NCBI GenBank assembly: GCA_037447655.1 | Contig: JBBHKE010002574.1 | Span: forward strand, 62,001 to 126,000 | Origin: Zygnema cylindricum | Taxonomy: Eukaryota > Streptophyta > Zygnematophyceae > Zygnematales > Zygnemataceae | Direction of reading: 5' to 3' | Length of the DNA stretch: 64,000 bases | Program-made: the position numbers and the translations under genes | Notes under the pieces: generated by a model | Database searches by the model: none | Seen by the model: the letters and a program-made list of their open reading frames with translations, nothing else | Told to the model about the DNA's origin: nothing | Shown here: piece after piece, positions 12,961 to 18,408 of the stretch | Layout of the letters: each line of letters opens with the position of its first letter | Numbering within the stretch: the first letter of the stretch is position 1

Positions 12961-13419
12961 CTACGACTTTTGGCGAGCTTTTGCTAACTGTAGTGCCTTG
13001 GTCACCTTTTCCAGGTTTCCTTCCAGCGTTTTGGCAAAATCCAGACCTGCCGGCGTATGGCAATTCGCTACCAATAAGGTTTGGGGAAGAGTGGGTTGTC
13101 GTCCATTTAGTGAGAATGGCGTAGCATTCGTAGACAACTGCACCGCATTGTTGTACGCCACCTCGATCGTCGTTAAATGGTCCACCCGATCCATTTGGTG
13201 CACCGAGACATAAGCCCGCAAAGCTTCCTCCAGAGTTCGATTCACCCTTTTAGTCTGACCATCAGTTTGAGGGTGGTAAGCTGTGGACATGGCCAACTGC
13301 ATGCCACACAGCGCAAAAAGATTTCGCCAAAAATGGCTCACGAATTTGTGATCGCGGTCGCTGACGATTCTCTTCGGAAGTCCGTGATGGCGGAATATCT
13401 CCCGAAAGAATAAGTCCGT
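12961..13419 (-). pseudogene. Gypsy integrase core, C-terminal half
   Basis: Reads TTDLFFREIFRHHGLPKRIV, SDRDHKFVSHFWRN, then HPQTDGQTKRVNRTLEEALR. The second catalytic Asp (VSDRD) is present, but the Glu of the usual QTERVNRTLE is Lys here. The frame is cut at 13419 by the composite insertion, and the N-terminal half resumes at 15287. Confidence 0.8.
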
Positions 13420-13600
13420 TGTTGATATTTGGGTATTTTCTAGGTCTTTGTTAGATAGAGAAGAGTAGAGGCAGTCTGCCTCTGACTCCCTCCTCCAAGC
13501 CCCCACACTTGTCGTAGTCACTGAAGGCTGGAGAGGGAGCTAGAGCCATGGCTGCCTAAGCTTTCCAGAGAGACAGGAATAGATAATATAGGTATGTTTA

Positions 13601-13692
13601 CCAAAAATGTATTTGACGGACCCAGGAATTGATCCTGGTACCTACCGTCCGTCAACAGTTCAGTAGCCGTCAGCTTTGTCCATTTAGTCTAC
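13601..13692 (-). other. tRNA-like Pol III module in LTR
   Basis: Minus strand: A-box-like TAAATGGACAAAGC, then GACGGAC and GTCCGTC forming a perfect 7-bp stem that encloses CCAGG-ATCAATT-CCTGG, a 5-bp T-arm-like hairpin with a 7-nt loop, then TTTTT at about 13602-13607. B-box core GATCAATTC fits GWTCRANNC. It is antisense to the LTR. Confidence 0.5.
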
Positions 13693-14461
13693 GAATAGTG
13701 CTACTACGCTTAGGGTTTGATAAATATTTAAACAGTTATAGATAGGATCTTCCATTTAACTGGGTTACGATGTTTACTACATAGAGACAGTTTAGTTTAG
13801 TACGGAGTACAGTACGGGTACGGAACGGATACCGCGCATTTGTTTCGATAGCGAAACAAATACCGCGCATCAATTTTCAACGGCTACAATTGAATGCCGA
13901 AATACATCGGACGGCCGTGATTAGCGCCGGCTACGCGAAAGGATAATTTGGCGGTTTGCAGACGCCGCCACTCCCGATGACACGTGGCAACATCGTACAG
14001 GATTACGTAATTTCCGGAACGGCAGAAAACAAATCCGGGAATTACAAATGTCGCACTATGGCGACATCGTACAATGTACGTACAGAAAGTACTCCGGCAC
14101 TTGTACTTTTTCGTACGGTGTTCTTATGACGCGGCATGACCTGGTGCCACGTGGAGAGATGAGATTGGGAGGCAGGAATTCCGGAGATTATAAGAGCGAA
14201 TCCGGATAGGACATTTGTTGGCTTTTTAGCCATGTTGTACGATGACCGTACAGAAGGTACACCGGCATCTGTACCTTTGTGTACTATACAGTAATGTGAT
14301 TGGTCCGTACCTCAGTAGATAGAGTTTTAGAGAGGGGATAGGACTTAGAAAATTCTGGGTAAGTAGCTGCCTCTCCCAGAGAGCACCCTGTATAAATGGC
14401 AAACTTTGGCCAGCCATAACTATCAATTTACTTGACCATTTTCAGTGATTCTTTTTGCTGC

Positions 14462-14526
14462 GGACTCAGGGGAGTCCAGGCTACACAGGGGTGTAGTCGG
14501 TCAGAGTTTTTGTCTGCCAGGGTGGC
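14462..14526 (+). other. Three R/U5 hairpins with AGGG(G) loops
   Basis: GGACTC-AGGG-GAGTCC (14462-14477), CTACAC-AGGG-GTGTAG (14481-14496) and GCC-AGGGT-GGC (14516-14526). The same series occurs in the LTRs of B, D, G and H with paired changes in the stems (for example CTTCAC with GTGAAG). They lie after the TATA box, so they should be in the 5' leader RNA. Confidence 0.65.
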
Positions 14527-14771
14527 TGTATTTCTAAGGGAAAGTCAAAGTGGGTGAATGTGTCCAAATCTCATATTCTAACTTTGCATTCTGTGGTGGA
14601 ACTGAGCACACAGAAAGTGTTATTTCACAGGGGTGAATCAATATTGGGGTTCTGACTGTCAAGGGGTCAGTCACTTGGGTTTATATTAACTTGGAGTCGG
14701 CACTATCTAGATTAGCTTCTTTTGGATCTGCATACTCTGAGGGCCAATGGAGGTCTCAGAGTTTCATATCA

Positions 14772-15000
14772 TGTTAGATTTCCTAGAAATCCGGGATTCG
14801 GCATGTCCCACACTTGGGAAAATTGAGCCGGCCAGGGTTCGAACCTGGGACCTTTCACTTCAGCTGCGAACGCACTACCACTGTGCCACCAGCTCGATGT
14901 TGAGACTGGCGGGTCCGTACCCATTTATTACGGGCGGCTCGAGTATGGATATTTCCATATTCTACCCCGTATTGGACCGGCTTCACGTGCCAATCCAACA
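14772..15000 (-). repeat. TRIM 3' LTR
   Basis: Minus-strand order: TGTTGGATTGG start, inverted repeat TATGGA/TCCATA, CCGTA-AATAAA-type hairpin, the 71-nt tRNA-like sequence, TTTT, hairpin CCCA-AGTG-TGGG, ATCTAACA end. It lies next to the polypurine tract, so it is the 3' copy. Its left neighbour is TATCA, not TCCGT. Confidence 0.85.
14825..14895 (-). tRNA. tRNA-like cloverleaf in TRIM LTR, copy 1
   Basis: 71 nt. Acceptor GAGCTGG/CCGGCTC pairs at all 7 positions (one G-U). D stem GCAC/GTGC with a GG-containing loop, anticodon stem TTCGC/GTGAA with one G-U, T stem CCAGG/CCTGG perfect with loop TTCGAAC. A box TGGCACAGTGG and B box GGTTCGAACCC are near consensus, and TTTT follows three bases after the end. 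The anticodon by position is CTG, but U33 is G, so decoding use is doubtful. No CCA encoded. Confidence 0.65.
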
Positions 15001-15057
15001 CCCCCCCTCACGGGAAAGCCGGTCAAACCATCCGCAATCCCGCTGGCTCTGATACCA
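15001..15057 (-). promoter_or_regulatory. TRIM interior: PPT and initiator tRNA-Met PBS
   Basis: Minus strand starts TGGTATCAGAGCC (complement of the initiator tRNA-Met 3' end) directly after one LTR and ends GAGGGGGGG directly before the other. The ~35 bp between show no feature. These are the only signals needed for reverse transcription in trans. Confidence 0.9.
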
Positions 15058-15286
15058 TGTTAGATTTCCTAGAAATCTGGGATTCGGCATGTCCCACACT
15101 TGGGAAAATTGAGCCGGCCTGGGTTCGAACCTGGGACCTTTCACTTCAGCTGCGAACGCACTACCACTGTGCCACCAGCTCGATGTTGAGACTGGCGGGT
15201 CCGTACCCATTTATTACGGGCGGCTCGAGTATGGATATTTCCATATTCTACCCCGTATTGGACCGGCTTCACGTGCCAATCCAACA
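15058..15286 (-). repeat. TRIM 5' LTR
   Basis: Differs from the other copy only at two sites: T for C near 15078 and T for A near 15120 on the + strand. Its outer end CCAACA abuts TCCGT (15287-15291), which repeats 13415-13419. Confidence 0.85.
15111..15181 (-). tRNA. tRNA-like cloverleaf in TRIM LTR, copy 2
   Basis: Same as the copy at 14825-14895 except one T-stem change that makes an A-A mismatch in the middle of the T stem. A box, B box and the TTTT after the end are unchanged. It lies in the 5' LTR, where a Pol III transcript would start inside the element. Confidence 0.55.
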
Positions 15287-16032
15287 TCCGTGATATCTCG
15301 TGCAGTGGTTGTGGTGGACGTGGGTAAGAAATGGGCCATTTTTGTTAAGAAATCCACGACGACAAAGATTGAGTCGTAGCCCTCCTTCGTGAGCGGAAGA
15401 GCTACGATGAAATTCATCGAAATTGCTTCCCAATGAAGAGATGGTATGGGAAGGGGTTGTAGCAGACCTTATTGCCCTGGTTCCGATTTGTTCCTGTAAC
15501 AGGAGTTGCACGTTCGGACATTTTCCGCAATGTCGTGAGTCATGTTTGGCTTGTAATACGCCTCAACGACATGCAGGATTGTTTTATCTCGCCCAAAATG
15601 TCCACTGAGCGGCTCATCGTGACTCATTTTAAGAATCGTATAACGTAACTCCACATTTGTCGGAACATACAGTCGTATTGTTTTACTTGGCCTGTACCGC
15701 CACATAGCGTTGGCGGTTCGAATTAGTACCTTCTGTTTAATTAGTTCCTTCAGTGTGACGTTGTCGTCGTAGGCGGCCTTTATTGTGCTTAACCACTGTT
15801 CGTCCACTTGCACAGTACTGGTGACTGCGCTGAGTTTTGGAACTTGCACTGCGGTTAACGTTGCGGTGTTCTCTTTCACAGAGTTCACATGTACATGTTG
15901 CGTTGCTTGCGGTCGTTGCTCCGCTACTGGCGCAACGACTCTCGGTCTTCTTGAGAGCGAATTTGCCGGGTTCGACTTGCCCGGCTTATACTCGATGACA
16001 AGTTCTGATCCAAAGGTCTGAAGAAACGCCAT
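15287..16032 (-). pseudogene. Gypsy RNase H end, integrase zinc domain and N-terminal core
   Basis: 15469-16032 reads YKPGKSNPANSLSRRP (RNase H tail; usual ADALSR), then LSGHFGRDKTIL and CNSCYRNK (zinc domain). A stop follows EPGQ. 15287-15417 reads MNFIVALPLTKEGYDSIFVV, VDFLTKMAHFLPTS. The first catalytic Asp of the usual MDFI is Asn here. The core is then cut by the composite insertion. Confidence 0.8.
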
Positions 16033-16260
16033 CTATCGCACTTGTTTCTTGGACAACTTCGACTGGGTTTGCATATATTGTAGGGCGTGGTGATCCGTGA
16101 TAATTGTGATCCGTTTTCCCTGGATGTAACATTTCCAAACCTCCAGCGCATTGATGATCGCAATAGTCTCTTTTTCATGGGTGGCCCGGTTAAGCTCTGC
16201 TGCCTTTAGTTTTCGACTGTCGTAGGCAATGGGTTGAAGGCCTTTTCCTTGATCCTACAT
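16033..16260 (-). pseudogene. Gypsy RNase H core remnant
   Basis: In-frame reading gives [14 protein letters not shown] (the first Asp block, just upstream near 16255-16300), HEKETIAIINALEVWKCY (the Glu block) and ITDHHALQYMQTQSKLSKKQ (the third Asp). A TAG replaces the usual Trp just before MAFLQTFG near 16030. Otherwise the domain is well preserved. Confidence 0.7.
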
Positions 16261-17460
16261 AAGAATCGCTCCAATAGCCGTATCGTTGGCGTCGGTGATT
16301 ATCGTTCAAGGTAAGTCTGGGTCGGGAACAGCTAACACAAGGGCGGTGACCAACCGCTGCATAAGTCAACCCGAACGGCATTACCCAAAACTGGAAATGA
16401 CCGTACCGAGATCTAAATGCCATCTTTTCTACATCCTCCTTGGCAATTATGATCTGGTGGTAGCCGCTCCGTAAGTCTATCTTGGAAAAATATTTAGCTC
16501 CGCGTAGTCGATCCAATAATTCGTCTATCCTCGGTAAAGGGTACGCATTCTTCACCGTTAATTTGTTTAGCGCTCGGTAGTCTATACACATACGGAAACC
16601 TCCATCTTTCTTGTTTACGAAGAGAACGGGGGCTCCATACGGTGACTTGCTCGGTTCGATTGCTCCGGCTTCGACCAACTCTGCGAGTTGCTTTTTGAGT
16701 TCGTCCAACTCGGTGTAACTCATCTTGTATATCCGATTAGTCGGGGGTACCGCTCCGATAACAAGCTCTATCTTATGGTCTACTTCGCGCTTTGGAGGTA
16801 GTCCTTCGGGGAGCTTCAGGGGAAATACATCTGCGTACTCCTCGAGAAGTTTTGTCACGACTTTTGGGGCCTCTTCGGAAGTCTTTCCAGTGTCGTCACT
16901 TTCTTTTGAGTCGAAGTCGGGGTCCTTCTTCTTCCATTGTTTTGGGATCCCCTCTTCCGCCTCTTCCATTGGCTGGACGACCGCCATACCAATCATTTCC
17001 CCTTTCTTGAGTGCCCTCTTAAGCTGTAAGGCCGAATGTAGGCATCCCTCTTCCGCTCCCTTACCAACCGCTCCCGCTTTTACCTCAAACTCTTCTTCAC
17101 CTTTCTTCGCTCTCATATCACCACTTCGCCAATCAATCGTCGGATTTAATTTTTGCAGCCACGGTTTCCCTTGGATTAATTCATGGTCACCAAGAGGTAA
17201 TACATGAAGCGTTTCATACCACCGGAATTTCCTAATTTCGACGAGTAATTTCAGAGTACGATGGGTAATCGATAAGGAACTTCCGTCGGCCAATTGTACC
17301 GACTGATAATCCTTTAGTACTACGAGAGGAAGTTTCAACCTTTTCATCGTCCCCGCGTTGATGAAGTTCCCCGATGCTCCGGAGTCCACCATGAAGTTAG
17401 TTGCGTTCACTCCGATTTGACCCCAAAATATCAAAGGGTCTCCTCCTTCTCCGGCTAACC
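16261..17460 (-). pseudogene. Gypsy protease and reverse transcriptase, RT active site deleted
   Basis: Protease: [18 protein letters not shown] (DSG site). RT blocks: [73 protein letters not shown]. The sequence then jumps to RNase H (near 16350) without the YLDD motif or the connecting several hundred bases. A long open frame (547 codons to 17833) survives, so the deletion is probably not ancient. Confidence 0.85.
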
Positions 17461-18408
17461 TCATAACGTTAAGTTTTCCCTTTTTGGGACCTTTACGTTT
17501 TGGACATTCTCGAGCCACATGATCTAAGGAACCGCACTGAAAGCATAAGCCATTTTGCCTCCTCCGCTGAAGCTCCTCGGGGGATAAGTCATTGGTCTTG
17601 GTCTTGGTAGGTTTCTTCTTTCTCCGCAGGACGTTAACCACCTTGTTATCCTCGTCAATTGCTCCGAGCTCCATGGGGGTTGGGCCATCGTCTCGTCGGC
17701 TTCCTCCGTCGTTGCTCGACCCGTAATGATAAGGTCTCCAGAGGTTGAAGTCGACCGAATCGGTCCGCTCCGCAAATTGGATGATTGCCGAGAGACTAGG
17801 AGTCGTGCTTTCTCGAGCAAGCCATTGTTCCACATTCTACGAATGGATGATTTAAGCCCCTTCACGTAGCGATCCACAGCTTTATCCCCCGTCATCGTAG
17901 GTATTTAAACCTTACACTCCAAAAACTGTTGCGTAAACTCCAACACCGAAGTTCGTTGCTTCAACACTGGGGTCTTATCTCTTGCAGCCTTAACTGTATT
18001 AACAGGCTGCCAGGCGTCACGGAGGAATTGAACGAAGAGAGCCCAAATGGTCGGTATCTCATCATTTTCCGCAAATGTCCTCCACCATGCTCCCGCTGCC
18101 CCTTTAAGAAGACCACCCGCGTAGTGAATCTTCTCACGGTCCGATAGGCTAGGAAAATTCTCAAGATAATTCGCAACACAGAATAGCCACGTGTCCAGGT
18201 TCGTGTGCCTTGCAGGGTTGAACTCGTCTGGAAGTCTTAACTTCGGTCTCCTGTAGTCCCTCTCCATGCCTCCACGAGGTCGCTCACTAAGACGAGATTT
18301 CAAAGTTGCGACTGTGTTGCTCAACTGTGCGTTCTGTAATCTAACGTTGTCTAACTCCCCGAGAACTTGCGCTAACATTTCTTTAGTGGATACGCCGTGT
18401 TTGCCCAC
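17461..18408 (-). pseudogene. Gypsy gag with CCHC knuckle
   Basis: N-terminal part 17905-18408 contains a coiled-coil-like segment followed by LRLPDEFNPARHTNLDTWLF, typical of Ty3/gypsy gag, and AGAAGAWWRT-like sequence. A stop follows LECKV, the same frame continues (17524-17895), and a frameshift near 17840 leads to the knuckle [14 protein letters not shown]. Start taken at 18408 (GTG in this frame; a true ATG may be internal). Confidence 0.75.

Follow-up and report, generated by a model that had tools for sequence, protein, structure and literature searches.

A Helenus-type TRIM with tRNA-like units in its LTRs from a probable zygnematophycean alga

Background

What is a tRNA-like sequence doing in both LTRs of a retroelement of 515 bp, and is an element of this kind new? 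The element lies in a 64,000-nucleotide stretch of DNA, referred to here as the window, and a preliminary description, made from the sequence alone, suggested that no TRIM family with a tRNA gene in its LTRs had been described. That claim is superseded by Helenus, published in 2024 for TRIMs with tRNA-derived LTRs, for which a group named TRIMp3 has been proposed and which, in the accessible text, occur in fungi, animals and one plant (Kojima 2024, PMC10886601); the accessible part of a 2026 meeting report also mentions Helenus (PMC12859917). The only plant family in the accessible text of Kojima 2024 is Helenus-1_SMo from Selaginella moellendorffii, with an LTR of 120 bp and an interior of 85 bp, and a functional Pol III promoter is there an expectation for Helenus, stated without demonstration (PMC10886601). 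The tRNA-bearing TRIM of the window is real and recently active, and its kind has been known since 2024; what is added here is the host group, a comparison of three families, and a cloverleaf that is retained without decoding.

Anatomy of the element

The element and its surroundings comprise the following features (positions in the window, strand in brackets).

14772..15286 (-): whole TRIM element, family A, 515 bp
15058..15286 (-): 5′ LTR, 229 bp, TGTTGG...CTAACA
14772..15000 (-): 3′ LTR, 229 bp
15110..15181 (-): tRNA-like unit of the 5′ LTR, with a T-stem mismatch (ARAGORN, Rfam, folding)
14824..14895 (-): tRNA-like unit of the 3′ LTR, cloverleaf fold (ARAGORN, Rfam, folding)
15164..15174 (-): A box, 5′ LTR
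15121..15131 (-): B box, 5′ LTR
14878..14888 (-): A box, 3′ LTR
14835..14845 (-): B box, 3′ LTR
15105..15108 (-): TTTT, possible Pol III terminator, 5′ LTR
14819..14822 (-): TTTT, possible Pol III terminator, 3′ LTR
15209..15216 (-): TAATAAAT, weak TATA-like motif at -35 of the 5′ LTR unit (from LTR offsets)
15186..15188 (-): CAA at -7 of the 5′ LTR unit (from LTR offsets)
15045..15057 (-): PBS TGGTATCAGAGCC
15001..15009 (-): PPT GAGGGGGGG (from the sequence)
15287..15291 (-): TSD ACGGA, proximal copy
13415..13419 (-): TSD ACGGA, distal copy, beyond the copia LTR
13420..14766 (+): copia solo LTR, 1347 bp, adjoining the TRIM, followed by TATCA (14767-14771)
15292..17836 (-): gypsy element, protease to the first part of integrase, the insertion target

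Read along the minus strand from 15286 to 14772, the element consists of the 5′ LTR, the PBS, a 57-bp interior that ends in the PPT, and the 3′ LTR. The coordinates given in the preliminary description are right, with the element read on the minus strand, and so are its main structural points: the direct repeats (14772-15000 and 15058-15286) differ at two of 229 positions, being identical at 227; an A box TGGCACAGTGG and a B box GGTTCGAACCC are seen in both LTRs together with TTTT; and the interior holds both a PBS and a PPT. At up to one mismatch the PBS sequence has a single match in the window, where 0.03 would be expected. The one reading frame of more than 120 aa across the TRIM lies on the plus strand, antisense to the element and spanning both LTRs, and it was not taken as a gene.

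The tRNA-like unit

ARAGORN reports two tRNAs on the minus strand, at 14824-14895 and 15110-15181. The Rfam tRNA model scores 53.6 bits for the unit of the 3′ LTR, the subject of the covariance-model check that had been proposed, and 45.5 bits for that of the 5′ LTR, against a gathering score of 29; both scores come from a scan of 13300-15400, and a scan of the whole window at default gathering scores listed the 3′ LTR unit only. A complete cloverleaf had been claimed for both LTRs. It stands for the 3′ LTR unit, of which it is the minimum-energy fold; the 5′ LTR unit folds otherwise, and one of the two LTR differences breaks a T-stem pair there. The TTTT, which had been placed three bases past the unit, begins one base after the discriminator base A73. 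The fold energies of both units are unremarkable against shuffled sequences (z -0.66 and -0.73), so the tRNA-like character is argued from the covariance-model score and from the comparison of families.

The isotype label given by ARAGORN is Gln (CTG). Position 33 is U in working tRNAs and is G in this unit. Since, in addition, the four sampled host tRNA-Gln (TTG) genes are only 51-61% identical to the unit, the label is not taken at face value. Among the 27 host tRNAs named by ARAGORN (of 28 fetched, with no name for locus L150, from 63 scored matches among 24,620 candidates) no source tRNA was found: the best identity is 69%, with tRNA-Arg CCT for the unit of family A and with tRNA-Trp CCA for that of family C, compared with a mean of 63% among the host tRNAs themselves. 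The source of the unit could possibly be the head of a SINE.

Copies and recent movement

The genome searched comprises 352.8 Mb in 2689 contigs. A search with the element gave 53 matches, the best 40 being scored of 975 candidates, and the sample therefore represents the closest copies. An exact 5-bp TSD flanks 30 of the 40 A-type loci inspected (39 fetched and the window copy); the ten misses include two one-base mismatches (L037, L047) and the copy in the window, which is counted by its immediate flanks. At seven of the 40, three or more LTR pieces are arrayed in tandem. Solo LTRs are found at four loci (L048, L052, L055 and L063), three of them, all but L048, with an exact 5-bp TSD in their printed flanks. 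Both LTRs are identical in six of 33 two-LTR copies, with a median of three differences.

At up to three mismatches, the 5′ half of the tRNA-like unit has 643 matches genome-wide and the first 25 bases of the A LTR have 534, with none for either reversed control; these figures count LTRs rather than elements and, by sequence, should leave out type C. The recent movement and the further copies anticipated in the preliminary description are thus borne out, in the near-identical LTRs of the window copy, the identical LTRs elsewhere, and hundreds of LTRs that include solo LTRs and TSD-flanked copies. The unit is likewise present in other members of the family and in two further families, so neither outcome named there as refuting is seen. 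An assembly artefact is rejected, as copies lie on many contigs with clean TSDs. The exact 24-base pattern of the unit was absent from viral contigs.

The insertion site

No matching TSD is found in the immediate flanks of the TRIM. The gypsy integrase upstream of it (in the minus sense) ends in ACGGA at 15291-15287 and resumes with ACGGA at 13419-13415, continuing at 13414 and below, and the joined flanks form an open frame. The distal ACGGA lies 1.35 kb from the TRIM, past the adjoining copia solo LTR. Since TATCA alone separates this solo LTR from the TRIM, the 5-bp duplication (13415-15291) encloses the solo LTR, TATCA and the TRIM together. On the plus strand the duplication reads TCCGT, and the TRIM and the copia solo LTR stand in opposite orientations within this composite insertion, which reflects either two insertions and a small rearrangement or two cDNAs joined before integration. 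A protein search with the gypsy pol gave many plant matches; one with the start of a window ORF gave none.

The end of the copia solo LTR was placed by comparison with other copies in the genome, the majority ending at query positions 1346-1349, and with one complete copy that carries the TSD CAAGC. Further LTRs of this family lie in the window near 21.0, 26.4, 41.0 and 43.6 kb. A short hairpin lies within the solo LTR at 13615-13653 (-); its loop (GGATCAATTCC) is B-box-like and is closed by a stem of 7 bp. It resembles a tRNA without D and anticodon arms, and Rfam reports nothing for it up to E 5. At locus L082 (C172:144100-146020), the copia that has the 1347-bp LTR shows an interior of some 1.86 kb with one long gag-like frame. 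Its PBS-like start, GGTTATGGGCCC, appears to resemble the complement of the initiator-Met anticodon arm. The adjoining copia was considered as a helper of the TRIM, but its PBS is different. This copia LTR is associated with a TRIM LTR end a second time at L062:1494-2875 (C569), where the 5′ LTR of a TRIM is reduced to positions 99-223 and a related copia LTR is inserted six bases before the TRIM LTR end, with no TSD.

Three families in one genome

Twenty loci were fetched from exact matches to the tRNA unit; for 19 of them, the listed LTR-start matches include no exact one close by. By best match they divide into 12 of a second family, B, and eight A-like loci, some diverged. Family B has the PBS TGGTATC(GG or AA)AGC and the PPT CTCGAGGGGGGG, from which L095 departs by one base; all three copies checked have exact TSDs. 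Searching for an A box and a B box followed by the LTR end and PBS yielded 132 matches, against none in the reversed control; hand-sorting of the 100 listed assigned 71 to A, 15 to B and 14 to a third type, C, for which seven of ten loci fetched have exact TSDs. LTRs of families A, B and C measure 229, 222 and 229 bp, and their interiors 57, 66 and 57 bp. At L121 (C1014:82167-83528), one of these seven, a C-A-C tandem LTR array lies inside one exact TSD (CTTCT), and this array is a product of recombination between subfamilies. Locus C427, sorted as A, has a C-like U5 and is likely another chimera.

Conservation was compared on one real copy per family, with the LTR split into U3 with leader, tRNA unit and U5. 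Identities in these three parts are 53/105, 69/72 and 30/55 for A-B, 54/106, 63/73 and 28/55 for C-B, and 85/106, 65/73 and 45/52 for A-C. The unit is far more alike than the remaining LTR between A and B (69/72 versus 83/160, p 2e-12) and between C and B (63/73 versus 82/161, p 1e-7), and is not significantly more conserved than its flanks between A and C (p 0.24). The LTR of A is nearest that of C and the unit of A nearest that of B, which implies either exchange of the unit between families or faster change in C.

Of 167 modules collected from the fetched loci, 163 are of standard length, and T stands at base 33 in none of these. The full set of 21 cloverleaf pairs survives in 96 of 127 A modules, 9 of 16 B modules and 15 of 20 C modules; these shares do not describe a random sample, since loci were selected for close or exact matching. 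Within family A, variation per site is 1.1% in the unit, 1.0% in U3 and 1.8% in U5, and paired sites vary as much as unpaired ones. The inserted A copies decay as if neutral, and any selection would act on active lineages rather than on copies at rest.

The motifs around the unit differ by family. Family A has its TATA-like motif at -35, CAA at -7 and TTTT one base after the unit; family B has TATATAAA at -32, with neither CAA nor, in the rest of the LTR, TTTT; family C has TTTT, with neither a TATA-like motif nor CAA near the unit. As the upstream and downstream Pol III motifs vary in this way, the tRNA body alone is common to the three families. In flowering-plant tRNA genes, according to the accessible text of one paper, the TATA motif occurs in 22-32%, CAA within 10 nt in 36-45% and poly(T) in 67-72% (PMC11700998).

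Transcription and the role of the unit

The preferred and rather probable reading is that this streptophyte, probably zygnematophycean, hosts a Helenus-type TRIM (TRIMp3) whose unit serves as a Pol III-type promoter and as an R region and does not function as a tRNA, the element being mobilised in trans. In the 5′ LTR, the A and B boxes of the unit would be recognised by TFIIIC and Pol III of the host, with transcription starting at the unit or slightly ahead of it. Some transcripts would escape termination at the short TTTT and run on through U5, the interior and U3. In A and C these would stop past the 3′ LTR unit; in B, whose LTR lacks TTTT, they would stop farther downstream. The R region required for first-strand transfer would then be the tRNA-like unit, the RNA of the element would be primed at the PBS, and packaging, copying and integration would be carried out by proteins of an autonomous LTR element, probably of the Copia type.

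Several observations favour this reading: both LTRs hold the unit with its A and B boxes; identity in the A-B and C-B comparisons is much higher in the unit than in the LTR around it; and exact TSDs, copies with identical LTRs and the 643 genome-wide matches to the 5′ half of the unit are found. The absence of U33 from all 163 modules also favours it. The CAA and TTTT of family A are common motifs of flowering-plant tRNA genes in the accessible text cited above (PMC11700998), and the accessible text of Kojima 2024 reads the same anatomy likewise (PMC10886601). Counting against it, the flanking Pol III motifs are not common to the families, the TTTT inside the 5′ LTR should cut most transcripts short, and the TATA box of B at -32 might just as well be a Pol II element. 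Between A and C, moreover, conservation of the unit does not significantly exceed that of its flanks, inserted A copies decay as if neutral, and no helper element was found, the adjoining copia having a different PBS.

Some of these same points would be expected if the unit were a captured tRNA or SINE head carried as a passenger, with no role of its own, in a Pol II-transcribed TRIM. The motif of family B at -32, the lack of extra constraint on the unit among inserted A copies, and the A-C comparison all accord with this; nevertheless the unit persists in three families at 96% (A-B) and 86% (C-B) identity where the rest of the LTR is at about 50%, and a passenger is quite unlikely. That the retrotransposon has spread a functional tRNA-Gln gene family is hardly credible. 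The ARAGORN call and the 96 A-type modules with every pair intact would suit such a gene, but the missing U33 and a best host identity of 69% lead to its rejection, the four sampled host tRNA-Gln (TTG) genes are no closer to the unit than other isotypes, and the triplet varies by family (CTG, CTT, CTC).

The main importance of the unit might instead lie in its RNA fold, with the R-region cloverleaf retained for end processing, packaging or strand transfer and the boxes being secondary. Units of A and B differ at one of 50 positions outside the boxes compared with two of 22 inside, and three anticodon-stem pairs that differ in C from A and B are all still paired (T-A to C-G, C-G to G-C, G-T to A-T), two of them by substitution on both sides; pairing is kept although U33 is gone. 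Set against this, two double changes in three lineages are few, the fold energies are not unusual, an exchange of the unit between families would also account for the likeness of A and B, and 31 of 127 A modules no longer keep all their pairs, as neutral decay would give. A role chiefly as folded RNA is considered unlikely. A related and tentative proposal, itself somewhat doubtful, is that the cloverleaf is a selected, exchangeable TRIM cassette, kept as an RNA fold by compensatory change and passed between families after it had lost decoding. If so, a promoter function alone would not suffice for the R region, which would need to act as a folded mimic of a tRNA in end processing, packaging or strand transfer.

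Relation to known elements

By its structural features, the family A TRIM is of the Helenus type, being likened to it by described anatomy rather than by consensus sequence. It has two LTRs, is short and non-coding, and carries a tRNA-like sequence with A and B boxes in its LTRs, a PBS and a PPT, and a 5-bp TSD (stated for plant and fungal Helenus). In the accessible description it also shares with Helenus the presence of solo LTRs, tandem arrays (reported for LTR-11_DR), a misfit isotype call and several families per genome. It differs in its probable algal host, grouped with Zygnematophyceae, and in its dimensions, since the LTRs (229, 222 and 229 bp) and interiors (57, 66 and 57 bp) of the three families contrast with the 120 and 85 bp of Helenus-1_SMo; its PBS is of the initiator-Met 3′-end type, which a minority of fungal Helenus families use according to the same text.

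Cassandra resembles the element, in the accessible text of the papers concerned, in having a Pol III-type RNA gene in its LTRs, tandem LTR-interior arrays and a PBS, TGGTATCAGAGC, that is common to both; these 12 bases of the TRIM PBS are read in Cassandra as of tRNA-Met type (PMC7215508, PMC10853983). However, Cassandra (Kalendar et al.) carries a 5S rRNA sequence where the TRIM has a tRNA-like unit, and Cassandra is rejected, as Rfam detects no 5S in the whole window at gathering scores or in 13300-15400 up to E 5. The tRNA-headed SINEs (SINE2) likewise have a tRNA-derived Pol III promoter, are non-coding and occur in many copies. They lack LTRs and integrate in the LINE manner, whereas the TRIM has LTRs, a PBS, a PPT, exact 5-bp TSDs and solo LTRs, all of LTR-type retrotransposition, and SINE2 is rejected also.

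TRIMs have been reported from Selaginella, two green algae and a red alga, with none in Physcomitrella, in the accessible text of Gao 2016 (PMC4717578), and the word tRNA is absent from the main text of that paper. In the accessible open-licence literature no paper on tRNA-bearing TRIMs in streptophyte algae was found.

The host

The host is probably a zygnematophycean alga. A search of the assembly for the rbcL family, directed at the host, gave no match. The host HSP110-type exon falls in an 11-row tree group with Mesotaenium and Closterium (support 100/100), set apart from the remaining nine rows, of which eight are named land plants; the tree covers one gene and 19 of 120 listed proteins, with a midpoint root and a host row that fills 46% of the columns. 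This placement would widen the plant hosts of tRNA-bearing TRIMs, of which one spikemoss has been published, to the apparent algal sister group of land plants, and such elements may therefore date further back in plants, or have arisen more frequently, than that one host indicates. With three families in one genome, a promoter role as against an RNA-fold role, and the swapping of units among TRIMs, become testable. Annotation of such genomes is also prone to mistake the hundreds of modules for tRNA-Gln genes.

Atypical copies

A few loci depart from the usual arrangement. A dense cluster of A-type LTRs at L075-L077 (C144) includes several spaced at 243 bp and one that is oppositely oriented and overlaps another. 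At L058 (C683, about 106.2-107.2 kb) the LTR folds back on itself near the U3 palindrome and carries an inverted piece of its own upstream flank, after which the LTR resumes at the tRNA-like unit. At L072:1500-1624 (C301) only LTR positions 105-229 are present, beginning one base ahead of the tRNA-like unit and running to the LTR end. As a single case with no TSD seen, this piece is not taken to mark the transcription start, and it resembles an integrated strong-stop product.
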